Source of the DNA: Desulfurococcaceae archaeon MEX13E-LK6-19
Lineage (GTDB): Archaea; Thermoproteota; Thermoprotei_A; Sulfolobales; Desulfurococcaceae
DNA length: 64,000 nucleotides
Reading direction: 5' to 3'
NCBI GenBank assembly: GCA_029637525.1
Contig: CP072660.1
Coordinates: forward strand, 1,265,612 to 1,329,611
A program made the position numbers and the translations under genes. Of this stretch, positions 4,336-11,077 are shown one piece after another (positions within the stretch are counted from its first letter, which is position 1; the number at the start of each line of letters is the position of its first letter). Below the pieces are notes generated by a model. That model was given only the letters and a program-made list of their open reading frames with translations, was not told where the DNA came from and did no database searches.

Positions 4336-4809
4336 GTGTTTAGAAATAGTGTTGTGTTCTTTCCGGTTTCATTAGTGTTAATATTGTTTATCTCGTTCTC
4401 TTATGGAGTATATGCTGATTCTACGTTTAACGTTGATGTAGTAGTTGAGGGAAATACCTATAGGAATGTAAAGATTGTGTGCAATACTAGTATCTTATCT
4501 GTAGGAAAGATCCCTAATGGATTAAGAATTATTGTAAATGAGACTCCTGCTAAAATAGTGTTGTACCTTAATGGAGACCTTCATGTTGGCTATGTGAGGG
4601 GTGATGTGCTATACTATAATGTAGTGACGACTGATACTGGGGCTAGTGCTTTAGAAATATTTGTGTCGAAAACTAGCGGGTTAGCTGAAGTAGAAATAGT
4701 ATTCAGGAGCCCATCATGGTTTCCCAGGATATCACTAATGACATTTATGGAGATAGCATTTATTGCATTGATTATACTTGTGATAGCTATAGTGATCAGG
4801 CGTAAATAG
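4336..4809 (+). CDS. Small secreted, C-terminally membrane-anchored protein
   Basis: A 157-residue protein with a GTG start at 4336 preceded by a GGTGAT ribosome-binding site. Residues 1-28 are a signal peptide ending near YGVYA. A beta-rich extracytoplasmic domain of about 100 residues follows, with N-glycosylation sequons such as NTS and NET. A single membrane helix near residues 133-153 ends in RRK. This in-out topology is typical of archaeal proteins anchored under or in the S-layer. I recognise no family. It shares layout and strand with the next gene and may belong to the same surface assembly. Confidence 0.65.
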   Translation: MFRNSVVFFPVSLVLILFISFSYGVYADSTFNVDVVVEGNTYRNVKIVCNTSILSVGKIPNGLRIIVNETPAKIVLYLNGDLHVGYVRGDVLYYNVVTTDTGASALEIFVSKTSGLAEVEIVFRSPSWFPRISLMTFMEIAFIALIILVIAIVIRRK

Positions 4810-5168: not shown

Positions 5169-6392
5169 TTGAAGCCTATGGTATACAATTATTTAATCTT
5201 GGGTTTCTTCGTAGTATTAGTACTTGCTTCTTCTTTCATAGTATCAGCTAATCCTATTCCAGTACCAGTTATTATTCTCGAGAAAGAATACATTAACATA
5301 GAAATAGAGAAGATAAGTTCTGATGAGCTACATGTTTCTGTAAGGGGTGTTTACCCATTCGAAAACATAATGTATGACCATGTGGTAATGTACTTCCCAA
5401 TACCAAGAGAAGCTGTATACGGCAATATAACAATACTTTACGGTAATGAAACAATAAGAGACTGGACTATTGTAGAAAAAGGCTTTATTAGTGACCATGA
5501 ATTCGAGTACAATACCGTCCTCGGTACACTGCCTATGATAAAATTTAGTATAAATGGTCTCAAAAACGTCTCTAAATTCAATATCACTGTTATATATGAG
5601 TATAATATCAGGAAAACAGATGGTGTATTCGAGACAATATATGCTATGGGTACTGGAAGATACTATTATTCAAAACAATGTACTGCCTACGTAACAATAG
5701 ATCTAATTGGGCTAAAGGGGTACGAGCTAAGCCTCTCTCTGACGCCAGCTGAAAAATTTGAAGGAGGGGTAACAGAGTACTCTATGACCATAGATAGTGA
5801 TCATGATAAAGTAATGTTGGTAGAGTCCAGCAGGTTGTTCCAAGGACTGGAAAGAGACTTGCTAATTAAAGTAATTCCACCAACTAATGTCACAACAAAC
5901 ACTAGTAACACCAATACCACTACTGGCAACAATACTGAGGCCAATGAGTGGGTTCCAAGCCAACCAAGTAGTGTAACAATAAAGACTTCATATGAAGAAG
6001 TCAATGGAACAACTATAGTGTATGTAACCATTGAGATGACTTTCCCTCACCTAGGCTTCCAAGTGGACTGGGGTAATGCTACAGTTGAGGACAACACAAT
6101 AAAAATAAATACAACAGTTCTCGAATGGACGGGACCGTCAGGACAGGCAGTGATGAAGAAAACACATACATACACTATAGTTGGTATTGGCCCGGGAGAT
6201 TATGTTATTGAATTATATATAAACAACAAATTGTATAACCAAACATCGTTGACAGTCAATAGTGGTGGTAATGATAGCAATAGTTCTCCTTCAGAAACAG
6301 TTCAGGCAAACACTAACTCCATGATAGCAGCGGGCTTAATAGTAGTGGTTATCATTGTACTTGTATTAATAGCCAAGAAGATACTTAGCTAA
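5169..6392 (+). CDS. Secreted, C-terminally anchored surface glycoprotein
   Basis: A 407-residue protein with a TTG start at 5169 and GGTGG upstream. A signal peptide covers residues 1-29, cleaved near VSANP. The ectodomain is beta-rich and has many N-glycosylation sequons. Around residues 240-258 an Asn/Thr-rich linker separates two domains, and the second has an Ig-like flavour (GPGDYVIELYINN). A single membrane helix (about residues 384-404) ends in AKKILS. The family is not recognised. It lies upstream of the filament locus on the same strand and may be a surface anchor or adhesin, which is inference from position and topology only. Confidence 0.65.
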   Translation: MKPMVYNYLILGFFVVLVLASSFIVSANPIPVPVIILEKEYINIEIEKISSDELHVSVRGVYPFENIMYDHVVMYFPIPREAVYGNITILYGNETIRDWTIVEKGFISDHEFEYNTVLGTLPMIKFSINGLKNVSKFNITVIYEYNIRKTDGVFETIYAMGTGRYYYSKQCTAYVTIDLIGLKGYELSLSLTPAEKFEGGVTEYSMTIDSDHDKVMLVESSRLFQGLERDLLIKVIPPTNVTTNTSNTNTTTGNNTEANEWVPSQPSSVTIKTSYEEVNGTTIVYVTIEMTFPHLGFQVDWGNATVEDNTIKINTTVLEWTGPSGQAVMKKTHTYTIVGIGPGDYVIELYINNKLYNQTSLTVNSGGNDSNSSPSETVQANTNSMIAAGLIVVVIIVLVLIAKKILS

Positions 6393-6578: not shown

Positions 6579-7232
6579 GTGAGAGAAAATACATATCATA
6601 GATCTAGAATAGATATATTGCTGGCTATTCTAAAATTCATAAACAATGAAGGCTACGCGAAGAAAACACACATTCTCTATGCAACGAACCTCAATACACG
6701 TAGCCTCGAGAAGTTCCTAAAATATCTCGTCAACATTAATGCTGTAGAGATTATTGAAGACAATGGAGTAAAGTACGCTTTAACATCGCATGGTAGGCAT
6801 ATACTTAGACTTATAGTGAGATTAAAGACTATCCTTAATAGTCGTGATTATGCTTTAAAGCTTGGTAATGAGGTATTTCTAAATAAGTTGAATTCTGTTC
6901 TCAAAGATTCTGCGAAAGATGTATTAGTTGAGTCGCGTAATGAGAGAATAAAAGGTTACTCGGGATTAACTTATAATGTAGATATACTTGTTGGCATTAA
7001 GTACAAGTACGTTATAATACCTGTGGTAAACGTTGTCAACAACTATTGCGAAGAGATAGATAACGCAATATGTAAGGCCTTATTGTATCTATTTGATACT
7101 GATTATAAATGTATAATGCTGCTTAGCAATGCTAACAACAATAATTGGTCACATGTACTAGGCTCTATTAAGAATTTGTTTAATAAGATCGGTATAGATG
7201 AGGATAGATATTTTTTTGTTAGAGTGAAATAG
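6579..7232 (+). CDS. Winged-helix regulator with unassigned C-terminal domain
   Basis: Residues 5-90 form a winged-helix domain of the archaeal type: a helix-turn-helix around KKTHILYATNLNTRSLEKFLKYL, a wing with EDNGVKYALTSHGRHIL and a following recognition-supporting helix. Residues 100-217 form a separate alpha/beta domain (SGLTYNVDILVGIKYKYVIIPVV) whose strand order is reminiscent of restriction-nuclease-like folds, but no complete D-ExK set is visible. The start is GTG. It lies directly upstream of the filament operon in the same direction with a 184-bp promoter gap, so local transcriptional control is a reasonable inference. Confidence 0.65.
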   Translation: MRENTYHRSRIDILLAILKFINNEGYAKKTHILYATNLNTRSLEKFLKYLVNINAVEIIEDNGVKYALTSHGRHILRLIVRLKTILNSRDYALKLGNEVFLNKLNSVLKDSAKDVLVESRNERIKGYSGLTYNVDILVGIKYKYVIIPVVNVVNNYCEEIDNAICKALLYLFDTDYKCIMLLSNANNNNWSHVLGSIKNLFNKIGIDEDRYFFVRVK

Positions 7233-7298
7233 TCTATGGATGCACTAATAGTATGTATGGTCTGTTCTTAGTTTAGTCTAGATTATTCGAAACAAGTT

Positions 7299-7335
7299 AT
7301 ATGTATAAGTTGTACATATCTGTCTTATGTATGTA
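7299..7335. promoter_or_regulatory. Inverted repeat and TATGTA repeats upstream of filament gene
   Basis: ATATGTA (7299-7305) and TACATAT (7313-7319) form a perfect 7-bp inverted repeat with a 7-nt spacer. TATGTATGTA follows at 7326-7335. The cluster sits 15-50 bp upstream of the TATA box of the gene at 7417. The same half-sites occur before the regulator gene at 6579. It is a candidate operator or activator site. Confidence 0.35.
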
Positions 7336-7348
7336 AGGTAGATACTTG

Positions 7349-7359
7349 TTATATAAATT
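7349..7359 (+). promoter_or_regulatory. TATA box of the first filament gene
   Basis: TTATATAAATT is an archaeal TATA box. Transcription would start about 25 bp downstream, near 7380, leaving a leader of roughly 35 nt that includes AAGGTG (7405-7410), 6 nt before the GTG start at 7417. Confidence 0.55.
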
Positions 7360-7416
7360 TGTCATACAATATCTTCTTATATTACAGAAACAATTATGTA
7401 ACCTAAGGTGTAAAAC

Positions 7417-7980
7417 GTGAAAGCCTTCAGTAAAATACTCGGAATAACCATGCTATCAATAATACTAGTAGGCTTCGGCGCAGCATTGGCAATGTGGAGC
7501 GAGACACTGAGGATAAACGTGTACATCAATACAGGTGAAGTGAAGGTAAAATGGAGCAATTGGTCATGCAGTGACGTAGGGATAGACCCTCAAGCACCGG
7601 GCTTCAATAACACTGAGGAGAAAGATGTGGCTAAATGTATAGTGAAACCAGAATTATATGATGCAGAAGGAAACCCGATCAAGATGAATATAACACTAGA
7701 CAACGTATACCCTGGATATGCAGTAAACATAACACTCATAGTAGATAACATTGGTACAATACCAGTAAAACTATTGTCATACTCTTGGACAAACCTTAGT
7801 GCACAGGATGAAGAGGCACTTAATATAAGCCTCATAATACCCAATAATACGCAAATCGATCCACCAAATGGTACAGGCGTATACATACTCGAAATTATAG
7901 TGACACAACAGGCAAATGAGACAGCTACGTATCACTTCGACTTAGAATTAACGTTTGCGCAATGGAACGAAGTACCATAA
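7417..7980 (+). CDS. TasA/camelysin-like filament subunit (paralogue 1)
   Basis: A 187-residue secreted protein. A signal peptide with an A-x-A type end (AALA) precedes the mature start MWSETLRINVYINTGE. That pattern of aromatic, acidic, beta-strand and TGE resembles the mature N-terminus of TasA/M73-camelysin and archaeal bundling-pilus subunits, in which it is the donor strand. The rest is predicted beta-rich. A Cys pair near residues 52 and 69 is shared with the next gene, as are the NITL-NVYPxY block, a GTIPVK motif, a final QWNE and many N-glycosylation sequons. There is no C-terminal anchor, as expected for a polymerising subunit. The neighbouring signal peptidase fits the TapA-SipW-TasA logic. 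Assignment is by motif and context, not by a search. Confidence 0.7.
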   Translation: MKAFSKILGITMLSIILVGFGAALAMWSETLRINVYINTGEVKVKWSNWSCSDVGIDPQAPGFNNTEEKDVAKCIVKPELYDAEGNPIKMNITLDNVYPGYAVNITLIVDNIGTIPVKLLSYSWTNLSAQDEEALNISLIIPNNTQIDPPNGTGVYILEIIVTQQANETATYHFDLELTFAQWNEVP

Positions 7981-8056
7981 CCATAGTCTAAATAGTATGG
8001 TTTAAAATAATTGTTTTTTAAATCTTTCGTAACCGTATAATCAGGTGTAACTAAAT

Positions 8057-8740
8057 ATGATATATAAGAATATAGTATTAGGTTTAATAATAACGGCACT
8101 AATGTCATCGGCATTAGTAGGCCTAGCTATGTGGTACGATACACTCAAAGTAAACGCGTATGTTGATACAGGTGAGCTTGACTGGGAATTTGTAAATGGT
8201 ACGATAATCTATAATGATGCATGTGGATTAGCCCCAGGCTATGGATTCTTTGCTGGAAATGATTGGAATGCATCATTCTTACCATCTCCAGGCGCACTAC
8301 AGCTTGACAAAGATGTTGGCTGCACAGTCGTGTCATTAATTGATACAGATAGTGACGGCGATTCTGACACGATGAACATAACACTAGTAAACGTGTATCC
8401 ATGGTACTATACGCACATAGCATTCAAAGTACACAATGATGGCACGATACCATTGAAGATATGGCGTGTAAGAATAAGCAATGGAACACATGAGTGGTCT
8501 TATTATGAATTAAATGAACAGGTATTACAACAAGGTGTTTATGTAGACCTCAATAGCGATGGAAAAGCTGACATACTAATATGGTGGGGCGACAACTTTG
8601 GTGAACAGCTTCATCCATGTCAAAGTGCTGACATAAGTCTTGACTTAACAGTACTTCAGGATGCACCAGAGAACACAACATTGACTCTATATATATTCCT
8701 TGAAGCAGTACAATGGAACGAATATACTCCGGGCCCATAA
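8057..8740 (+). CDS. TasA/camelysin-like filament subunit (paralogue 2)
   Basis: A 227-residue paralogue of the previous gene, with ATG at 8057 and GGTG 9 nt upstream. The mature N-terminus MWYDTLKVNAYVDTGE, the Cys pair, the NITLVNVYPWY block, GTIPLK and the terminal QWNE are shared. Two Asp-rich loops, DTDSDGDSD and DLNSDGKAD, match the DxDxDGxxD pattern of EF-hand-like calcium loops and are absent from paralogue 1. It has no C-terminal membrane helix. It could be a second major subunit, or a minor or capping subunit. It is separated by 76 bp from paralogue 1 and by 77 bp from the signal peptidase gene. Confidence 0.7.
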   Translation: MIYKNIVLGLIITALMSSALVGLAMWYDTLKVNAYVDTGELDWEFVNGTIIYNDACGLAPGYGFFAGNDWNASFLPSPGALQLDKDVGCTVVSLIDTDSDGDSDTMNITLVNVYPWYYTHIAFKVHNDGTIPLKIWRVRISNGTHEWSYYELNEQVLQQGVYVDLNSDGKADILIWWGDNFGEQLHPCQSADISLDLTVLQDAPENTTLTLYIFLEAVQWNEYTPGP

Positions 8741-8817
8741 ACCTGCCCCGTACCACACAAAACCCAATATATTTTTTCACCAAATAACTCAATCCGTGGT
8801 TGAGGTAGTAGTAAACC

Positions 8818-10035
8818 TTGAAGAAAATAACTACTACAATAATACTGCTCTTTATTTCTGCATACATGCTTCAAAATCTACAAGTCCTCTATGGGCTAAC
8901 TTTCTACGTAATTCCTTCAATTATATGGATCATAATGTTTGTTACATTCATAGCTACTAATAGTGCACATGATATTTTTGAGCAAAAAGAGTATGCAAAC
9001 GTAATCTCGTTTATGCTCTTAGCAGGTCTTATACCATGGTATGCTGCGGGAATATACTTTGGTTTTGGCTTTAACTTACTAGCGGTAATGCTTTTCCAGT
9101 ATATTGTATACATAGTGTATAGGATTTCATACGTTATTTCATTAGAAGTTCTTAGAAACATCTTTATAAAGAAAATGAGTTATCTCTGGATAAACCAAAG
9201 ATTTCTTCTTCTAGTTTCCTTGGCAACAACATTGCTCAGTGTATCATTATCTAAGCTTGAAGGTCTTGAGATCAAGGACATTCCCGAGTTAATGGTATTA
9301 TTTTCACAAAACCTTATATTAACCATTATTGCTTGGAGATATGGGTTTAAAGCTCAGTTATTCTTCAGTATACCATATACTACTATGATAAAACTTGTAC
9401 CAATAATGCCTGATTTAACTGGAGTAATTAGATGGTTATTACTGGTATTTATATCATTACTCCAAGCATCAATATTCTATGTATATAACGTTGTTGAGAG
9501 AAAGACATCAATAGGCATAGATCAAGTTACGGGCTCATTCTATAAGGCGAAGATAAGTAAGTTCGTTAATATTGTTAACAAGATACTGCTTATCGGAGCA
9601 ATAATATTTATGGTGGGTTTCTTTGTTGGATACCGTGCTATAGTAGTGGCTAGCAATAGTATGCAACCAACACTGAGTAGAGGAGATATTGTTGTAATTA
9701 ATATCAATGATCTAGATGCTAATAAAGGTGATGTCATAGTTTTCATTGTAGGAAATAAAATGATTATCCACCGAGTTATTGCTTCTTATCAGAGAAACGG
9801 CGAGCAAATGTATATAACACAAGGAGACGCAAATGATGCTCCCGATCCATGGGTTTTAAAGAAAGAAAATATTGTTGGTAAACAAGTATTTACTATACCA
9901 CACATGGGATATCCGTCGCTACTTTTTTCTGGAATATTTGAAAGTCCTGTAACAGGTATTGGTGTAACTATAACTTTTATACTGGGTTTATTCATAATAT
10001 ACATACTAAGAGATGTGGTGACTGTTTTTGAATAA
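8818..10035 (+). CDS. Polytopic signal peptidase I (SipW/ER type)
   Basis: This enzyme should remove signal peptides outside the membrane. The first 250 residues contain about seven membrane helices and no recognisable catalytic motif. The catalytic domain follows: ASNSMQPT with nucleophile Ser281, RGDIVVI, GDVIVF, then IIHRVI with His318 in the place of the bacterial Lys, and GDAND (Asp337/Asp340). The Ser-His arrangement is the SipW/eukaryotic type. A last helix lies near the C-terminus. At 405 residues it is about twice the size of typical SipW. The start is TTG at 8818. The next gene overlaps it by 8 nt. Position suggests the filament precursors are its substrates. Confidence 0.85.
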   Translation: MKKITTTIILLFISAYMLQNLQVLYGLTFYVIPSIIWIIMFVTFIATNSAHDIFEQKEYANVISFMLLAGLIPWYAAGIYFGFGFNLLAVMLFQYIVYIVYRISYVISLEVLRNIFIKKMSYLWINQRFLLLVSLATTLLSVSLSKLEGLEIKDIPELMVLFSQNLILTIIAWRYGFKAQLFFSIPYTTMIKLVPIMPDLTGVIRWLLLVFISLLQASIFYVYNVVERKTSIGIDQVTGSFYKAKISKFVNIVNKILLIGAIIFMVGFFVGYRAIVVASNSMQPTLSRGDIVVININDLDANKGDVIVFIVGNKMIIHRVIASYQRNGEQMYITQGDANDAPDPWVLKKENIVGKQVFTIPHMGYPSLLFSGIFESPVTGIGVTITFILGLFIIYILRDVVTVFE

Positions 10036-11077
10036 AAATATCGAGTTAAAGATAATGTTGTACTTTAGGAGATACATCGAGATTATACTCTTGCTTCTCC
10101 TCATAGCATTGGTTGCCTCCTCTATAATAATGGTGTATGCTTACAGGCAGAGAGAATATATTGAGAACAAATATACTATAACGTATGCGTCTCTTAAAGC
10201 AACAGTAAAAAGTGCTGTAAAAGTAAAGCCAGCTCTCATATACGATTACAGAACTGTTATCAATACAAATCAAGTATACTACAATCTAGTTAAAGAAATA
10301 GTGGTGAATATATCGGTAAAAACAGTATTAAATAGCAAAACCAGTTTGGGGAAGATAGTATCCGCAAATACTAGTGTCTCAATGGGTTCAGTAATAAAAT
10401 CTGGTTCATGGGCAAAAAGCTATGATGTAACCTATGTGAAGGTAAAAGATAACCCGCTTACGTATACAATAAGTATTGATGTAAATAAAATATCAAAAGT
10501 AGTTAACGTAATTGATTCCGAAATCAATCAACGTACACGAGAATTCGAGTATGAAATCCCAATAAATATTGTAGTAAGAGTGAAATATAGCAATGGTGCA
10601 TTGAAAACGTATAACCTTAACCCCAAAATAATAATTTCATTTAATAAAGATGCCAATAGAATATCTATTTCTTCAAAAGATTTAAGCAGAGAATACTCAA
10701 GTTATTCGAGAAACGTTAAACCCAATATATTCAACCCCATAGGCATGACTATTGTGGACGCCAGAAAAACATCTCTGTACATGGTACTAGCTTTTACAGC
10801 CCTATTTCTTGTTACACTAGTAACATATGTAAGGAAGGTAAAATTAACAAGTAAACCGCCAAGTTACTTAAGCAAACACTCTTCTCAAATTATTTATGGA
10901 GAACTTGTTGACAAAGGAAGCAAGCCAATAGTATCGTTACAAAATATAGAATCACTGTTTAAACTAGCTAAACACTACAAGAAGCCAATACTGTACAGCA
11001 GGAAAGACAATAGTTTTTATCTAATTCTTAGCGACACAATATACATGTACAATCTACCCGAGAATAAGGAAAGCTAG
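10028..11077 (+). CDS. DUF5305 family membrane protein
   Basis: A membrane helix at about residues 16-37 is followed by a beta-rich extracytoplasmic domain (45-240), a second helix (about 250-270) and a cytoplasmic tail of 80 residues with the typical block IESLFKLAKHYKKPILYSRKDN. This layout matches DUF5305, a family I know as a frequent neighbour of archaeal signal peptidases and SipW-type exported proteins. Its molecular role is not established. The TTG start overlaps the signal peptidase stop by 8 nt, so the two are probably translated together. An assembly or membrane-anchoring role for the filaments is inference. Confidence 0.75.
   Translation: MNKNIELKIMLYFRRYIEIILLLLLIALVASSIIMVYAYRQREYIENKYTITYASLKATVKSAVKVKPALIYDYRTVINTNQVYYNLVKEIVVNISVKTVLNSKTSLGKIVSANTSVSMGSVIKSGSWAKSYDVTYVKVKDNPLTYTISIDVNKISKVVNVIDSEINQRTREFEYEIPINIVVRVKYSNGALKTYNLNPKIIISFNKDANRISISSKDLSREYSSYSRNVKPNIFNPIGMTIVDARKTSLYMVLAFTALFLVTLVTYVRKVKLTSKPPSYLSKHSSQIIYGELVDKGSKPIVSLQNIESLFKLAKHYKKPILYSRKDNSFYLILSDTIYMYNLPENKES

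Follow-up and report, generated by a model that had tools for sequence, protein, structure and literature searches.

The window, a stretch of 64,000 nucleotides from the heat-loving Desulfurococcaceae archaeon MEX13E-LK6-19 (contig CP072660.1, positions 1,265,612 to 1,329,611), carries a cluster of five adjacent plus-strand genes at 6579..11077. The cluster is real and well conserved, and represents the known AbpX type of donor-strand filament locus in a form with two subunits and a previously undescribed membrane partner, a protein of the DUF5305 family. What is new beyond the known systems is its processing pair, a second signal peptidase, polytopic and of the Ser/His type, whose gene overlaps that of the DUF5305 protein. 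We consider it likely that the locus builds an AbpX-type, non-type IV surface filament from two paralogous subunits. This reading starts from the genes themselves, the homology of both secreted proteins to AbpX, the conserved gene order and co-occurrence, and natural fusions of a peptidase to DUF5305. The first-pass annotation of this DNA had described the five genes as one unit, and indeed all open reading frames (ORFs) lay at the positions given below, belonged to the families named for them, and had an order that was conserved in relatives. It had also proposed a matrix or pilus-type filament system in a Desulfurococcales-like organism, which was borne out in kind by the AbpX homology, the locus's own peptidase, and kindred loci in Desulfurococcales.

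Subunit 1 (P0002; 7417..7980) and subunit 2 (P0003; 8057..8740) are secreted proteins of 187 and 227 amino acids (aa), respectively, and neither matched a Pfam or NCBIfam family. They are paralogues, aligning in hhalign with an expect value (E) of 3e-38 over 186 columns, and each has a single N-terminal hydrophobic segment followed by MW(S/Y)(E/D)TL...TGE. Searched singly against the PDB, both matched AbpX (phmmer E 1.9e-9 for subunit 1; E 3.6e-4 for subunit 2). Profiles made from nine orthologues of each also found AbpX, at E 1.8e-11 for subunit 1 (residues 27-162) and E 2.1e-7 for subunit 2. A profile of 53 relatives matched it with E 5.8e-28 over almost its full length; since the underlying alignment contains AbpX itself (L111), the independent tests are the nine-orthologue profiles.

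In one surveyed genome (G248), the mature form of an encoded protein agrees letter for letter with the PDB chain of AbpX, and its precursor shows that this chain starts directly after ...TYA↓QW. Because PMC11952670 names the source of that chain, we infer from this identity that G248 is Pyrodictium abyssi. The next gene there encodes a polytopic peptidase of the window type. The predicted cut sites in the window, ALA↓MW and GLA↓MW, correspond to TYA↓QW of AbpX. Accordingly placed by homology to the AbpX precursor, the predicted signal peptide of subunit 1 spans 7417..7491 and ends at A-L-A↓M-W (residue 25/26), and that of subunit 2, placed by the motif shared with subunit 1 and AbpX, spans 8057..8128 and ends at G-L-A↓M-W (residue 24/25). 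Around these sites, A23, A25, M26, and W27 of subunit 1 were invariant across nine orthologues, as were A24 and W26 of subunit 2 among its orthologues. AbpX, AbpA, and TasA have been described as donor-strand fibers (PMC11952670, PMC9674648). In the solved AbpX construct 9rhp, the N-terminal strand was removed and QWSETLSLSATISTG was placed at the C-terminus behind a GGGG linker, which shows that the depositors treated that stretch as the donor strand. The homologous strand in subunit 1, MWSETLRINVYINTG (7492..7536), is the predicted donor strand. Conservation in both window subunits was highest in the N-terminal strand (WSETL...TG), whose W27 and G40 (subunit 1 numbering) were invariant in all 53 diverse relatives. 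Together, the AbpX homology of both proteins and the donor-strand motif that they share support an earlier suggestion that the paralogous secreted proteins resemble archaeal bundling-pilus subunits.

In a quick tree of the subunits, subunit 1 fell in a clade of 54 rows (support 98) and subunit 2 in a separate clade of 45 rows (support 99; Shimodaira-Hasegawa-like approximate likelihood ratio test), and a third clade of subunit-like proteins was also present. The two well-supported clades indicate that the subunit duplication is old, subunit 2 being a separate, ancient paralogue, and that both copies have been retained together. The AlphaFold2 (AF2) model of subunit 2 was beta-rich, with a predicted local distance difference test (pLDDT) score of 74 overall and below 50 for the N-terminal strand. 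The AbpX-like subunit 1 is probably the principal building block, with subunit 2 serving as a co-subunit or an initiator. If subunit 2 were a TapA-like initiator or tip, it would donate a strand and accept none, and the filament would be a homopolymer of subunit 1. Such a division of labor would suit the long joint retention of two old clades, and it has a parallel in TapA, which starts TasA filaments, with one of the two Bacillus cereus camelysins proposed to act as TapA (PMC10151520). However, the full subunit layout is common to subunits 1 and 2, and B. cereus TasA and CalY, from the sipW locus, instead coassemble into mixed filaments, which sets an example of paralogues sharing a filament (PMC13082335). 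We therefore regard the initiator role as a serious possibility, although not the outcome that we would expect.

In some loci there is also a long third subunit, about 420-470 aa in length, that has a head of the Abp type (L018:1724-3115, L020:10877-12133, and L039:6399). In L018 the head is followed by an SdrD B-like domain, and in L020 by an additional domain after a Thr/Pro linker; these proteins are possible tip adhesins. A third, distant Abp-like secreted protein, cysteine-rich and with a C-terminal PWN motif, is encoded in the same genome about 114 kb downstream (approximately 1387580-1388188 on the contig), outside the window and unlinked to the locus.

The dedicated polytopic signal peptidase (P0004, 405 aa; 8818..10035) matched Peptidase_S26 (E 4.1e-6), the archaeal signal peptidase I model TIGR02228 above its cut-off (E 8.7e-25), and SEC11A (E 1.1e-9); its score against the SipW equivalog model, 60 bits, was below the cut-off of 190. 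The S26B catalytic domain (9553..9930) holds Ser281 (9658-9660), His318 (9769-9771), and Asp337/Asp343, and S281, H318, R319, D337, and D343 were invariant among nine peptidase orthologues. Judged by sequence, the catalytic domain is an endoplasmic reticulum (ER)-type Ser/His enzyme like SEC11, in agreement with the Ser/His signal peptidase that had been assigned to the locus. In TasA, position P2' is aromatic, which is among the features that make it a poor substrate for the common peptidase; the ER-type SipW cuts it instead (PMC10269814). All the subunits considered here have an invariant W at that position, which by the same logic would suit a dedicated enzyme.

The genome holds two signal peptidases, an ordinary one of 148 aa and the polytopic one in the window. 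The latter is distinguished by an N-terminal membrane domain of about 245 residues (8818..9552; conserved G78, E110, R113, and P195), which is kept in relatives, including those of Bacillota and P. abyssi. SEC11, SipW, and the 148-aa peptidase showed no such domain. Two lineages have a split form, in which a short peptidase is accompanied by a neighboring 270-291 aa membrane protein of the Rce1-like/CPBP family. Comparison of the fused membrane domain with the separate Rce1-like protein gave an hhalign probability of 75% (E 2.5e-5), which is only suggestive of a correspondence between the two. The split-form loci (L117:8179-9607, L122:6392-7814, and L133:11060-12389) also hold DUF5305 and several subunit-like proteins. 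Elsewhere, L121:3029-4027 and L134:8896-9924 encode signal peptidases with a C-terminal extension. In L121 this extension includes another signal sequence of the camelysin/SipW type (TIGR04088), which suggests that the enzyme and its substrate are joined in a single polypeptide.

To survey the cluster, 85,000 species genomes were scanned with subunit 1, yielding 43 loci, of which 40 were archaeal and came from Desulfurococcales, Pyrodictiaceae, Sulfolobales, and others. At least two subunits were present in 38 of the 40 archaeal loci, and the peptidase came next in 31 of the 32 loci with sufficient sequence. Of the 29 loci where this could be judged, 27 had DUF5305 directly after the peptidase; the two exceptions were a frame-broken peptidase with DUF5305 immediately behind it and a divergent DUF5305 (L062). 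The spacing between the two genes was -20 to +19 in 24 of the 27, so that they overlapped or abutted. The helix-turn-helix (HTH) gene was less constant, with 18 of 32 loci carrying it ahead of the subunit genes. DUF5305 and subunit 1 co-occurred in 23 of 398 genomes of the phylum against 5.9 expected (P = 2e-11, a value inflated by genome relatedness). The Pfam DUF5305 model misses members, and a wider profile added six more genomes of the same family. The gene arrangement is not due to chance, and the survey revealed the linkage of subunits, polytopic peptidase, and DUF5305 that the first-pass annotation had anticipated, with the order of these four genes kept across the 40 archaeal loci, which come from many genera.

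The DUF5305 gene (P0005, 349 aa; 10028..11077) overlaps the peptidase gene by 8 bases at its start. The protein matched PF17231 with E 1.9e-13 and 50.8 bits (curated cut-off, 29). Its AF2 model, built from 49 sequences, had a mean pLDDT of 91.8 and comprised a transmembrane (TM) helix (residues 8-41), a long beta domain outside (44-232), a second TM helix (247-271), and a small inside domain; positive charges place both ends inside. TldD and perforins were dismissed as fold relatives, with template modeling scores (TM-scores) near 0.1, and DUF5305 was rejected as a divergent form of a subunit or a paralogue of the TapA kind, as profile comparison aligned the hydrophobic N-termini alone. No paper in the literature searched, which did not include the original AbpA and AbpX papers, mentions DUF5305.

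Three genomes of one genus-level group encode a natural fusion of 516-528 aa, in which a signal peptidase (about residues 6-180) is joined to a complete DUF5305 (180-515). The fusions lie at L125:7138-8691 (G281), L135:6913-8499 (G286), and L138:1483-3033 (G413). These fusions and the overlapping genes argue that peptidase and DUF5305 act together, most likely as partners at the membrane. The role first suggested for it, that of a possible assembly or anchoring factor, is thereby sharpened toward joint action with the peptidase rather than mere anchoring. As an anchor or base, DUF5305 would cap the last subunit through its beta domain without acting with the peptidase, and their pairing would reflect co-expression. 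Its two TM helices and the long outside beta domain on stalk-like strands would serve this purpose, its gene adjoins the subunit genes, and in a few loci it stands apart (divergent in L062, and with the peptidase absent within 1.5 kb in several distant loci). However, fusion proteins exist, the two genes overlap or abut in most loci, and neither sequences nor profiles relate DUF5305 to the subunits; we find a pure anchor unlikely. In a further locus (L128, G348), DUF5305 and the peptidase are accompanied by three near-identical small secreted proteins of about 175-184 aa.

We therefore favor joint action of DUF5305 and the peptidase, and suggest the following sequence of events. Both subunits would cross the membrane through Sec, each led by a conventional signal peptide that ends in AxA or GLA ahead of MW, and the dedicated membrane-embedded Ser/His peptidase would cut before MW. 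DUF5305, beside the peptidase and with its beta domain outside, would receive, hold, or position the freshly cut subunit and so couple cleavage to assembly, a step whose chance we put a little short of even. The freed strand, W(S/Y)(E/D)TL...TG, would then insert into the next subunit by donor-strand exchange, and the thread would grow. More generally, and only tentatively, DUF5305 could be a partner subunit of a filament-dedicated peptidase, common to archaea and some Bacillota, that catches the cut subunit and passes on its donor strand, making cleavage and polymerization one coupled step. The usual view of TasA/Abp-type filaments is that they form spontaneously or with the help of a soluble starter. 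If the proposal is true, DUF5305 and the peptidase form a coupled assembly machine for these filaments. For the start and membrane holding of single-membrane donor-strand filaments (TasA, AbpA, AbpX, and threads), DUF5305 is a concrete candidate for the missing step; for the Sulfolobus thread, the assembly pathway has been stated to be unknown (PMC9715654).

It is very improbable that the secreted proteins are instead ordinary, non-polymerizing glycoproteins of the cell surface or proteins associated with an S-layer. Their many N-glycosylation sequons (nine in subunit 1 and five in subunit 2) would suit such a role, and the organism's filaments are a prediction from genes, but homology to a solved filament subunit, donor strand included, a dedicated peptidase, and a conserved pair of paralogues speak against it.

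Several results nevertheless weigh against an AbpX-type filament assembled with the help of DUF5305. The organism's filament is predicted here from its genes, and no filament has been observed. A fold search with the subunit 2 monomer model, made from nine sequences, returned generic beta-sandwiches alone (TM-scores < 0.45) and carried little information. The fold of DUF5305 had no match in the PDB at E ≤ 0.001, and its fusions to the peptidase are known from a single genus-level group. Furthermore, DUF5305 was undetected in P. abyssi, in three of four Pyrobaculum-like genomes, and in four sampled genomes of one family, despite the presence of subunits and of the polytopic peptidase (the latter seen in those loci that were examined). 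It is thus an accessory, not essential to every such filament, and its job may be done by other means elsewhere. The likeness to TasA was also slight. The 53-sequence profile reached the TasA chains 8aur and 5of1 with sub-threshold E values of 0.062 and 0.35, the conserved N-x-G and QWN motifs being in register in the 8aur alignment, and hhalign gave a probability of 13% for subunit against TasA. Neither subunit matched the camelysin/TasA models (PF12389 and NF046066) at E ≤ 1, nor did any subunit 1 orthologue at E ≤ 0.1, and membership of the window subunits in that family was rejected. Hence, of the TasA/camelysin and bundling-pilus resemblance first proposed, the kinship with AbpX, a filament of the bundling-pilus kind, is clear, and by these comparisons "TasA-like" is better read as AbpX-like and remotely TasA-like.

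The first gene of the cluster (6579..7232) encodes a winged-helix protein with an HTH_45/Sso10a-like N-terminal domain and a C-terminal domain. It matched HTH_45 (PF14947) with E 1.7e-16 and scored 55 bits against the Sso10a family, slightly below the cut-off of 60. It is a likely local regulator, and probably controls the genes of the locus. Two secreted proteins encoded further upstream (4336-4809 and 5169-6392) were rejected as cluster members, having no relatives in the other loci. Both have hydrophobic segments at the N- and C-termini and no Pfam relatives, and the 5169-6392 protein has 14 glycosylation sequons. The genome is a single contig of 1.91 Mb and contains no second full copy of the locus.

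Among known surface filaments, type IV pili differ in their export signal: type IV pilins have a class III signal, whereas the window subunits carry a signal of class I type that ends at an AxA-like site, and their locus has an S26 peptidase. Inspection of the gene cluster in the window and in relatives showed no pilus ATPase or platform gene. The closest counterpart is AbpX of P. abyssi (PDB 9sj2 and 9rhp), which shares homology across the mature subunit, the donor-strand motif, the A↓xW cut, and a neighboring polytopic peptidase, but there is one subunit there and two paralogues here, and DUF5305 was not detected there. AbpA of Pyrobaculum calidifontis is, by the literature, a donor-strand filament of like kind. 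The AbpA chain was matched neither in the profile search nor via the Pyrobaculum-like relatives, which found AbpX alone; one Pyrobaculum-like genome encodes two proteins related to the subunits along with a polytopic peptidase, as in the window. The Sulfolobus thread (Saci_0406) is likewise donor-strand complemented, glycosylated, and made with a class I signal peptide (PMC9715654), and its chain was absent from the 53-sequence profile search at E ≤ 1. Eukaryotic SEC11 has the same kind of Ser/His catalytic domain, but the window peptidase carries a fused polytopic N-terminal domain and, unlike SEC11, probably has a narrow set of substrates.

The bacterial TapA-SipW-TasA and SipW-TasA-CalY systems resemble the window locus in their secreted beta subunits, the aromatic P2' residue, and an ER-type peptidase in the locus. 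They differ in that subunit similarity is sub-threshold and the window peptidase has its large extra membrane domain; furthermore, DUF5305, present in the window locus, is unnamed in the Bacillus TasA operons as described (PMC9674648, PMC10151520, PMC13082335). Three Bacillota loci (L065, L066, and L067) hold Abp-like subunits with the same layout and a polytopic signal peptidase, and L065 has DUF5305 too; one Bacillota subunit relative gave a camelysin match below threshold. The DUF5305/peptidase pair of two further archaeal genomes adjoins proteins above the camelysin cut-off (PF12389 E 9e-13 and 2e-11), and one of these neighbors also matches the TasA model (E 4.9e-9). The pair thus stands beside true camelysin/TasA-type proteins as well, which ties the window locus indirectly to TasA and makes the pair a processing module common to Abp-type and TasA-type loci, and DUF5305 marks loci of both types across archaea and in some Bacillota.

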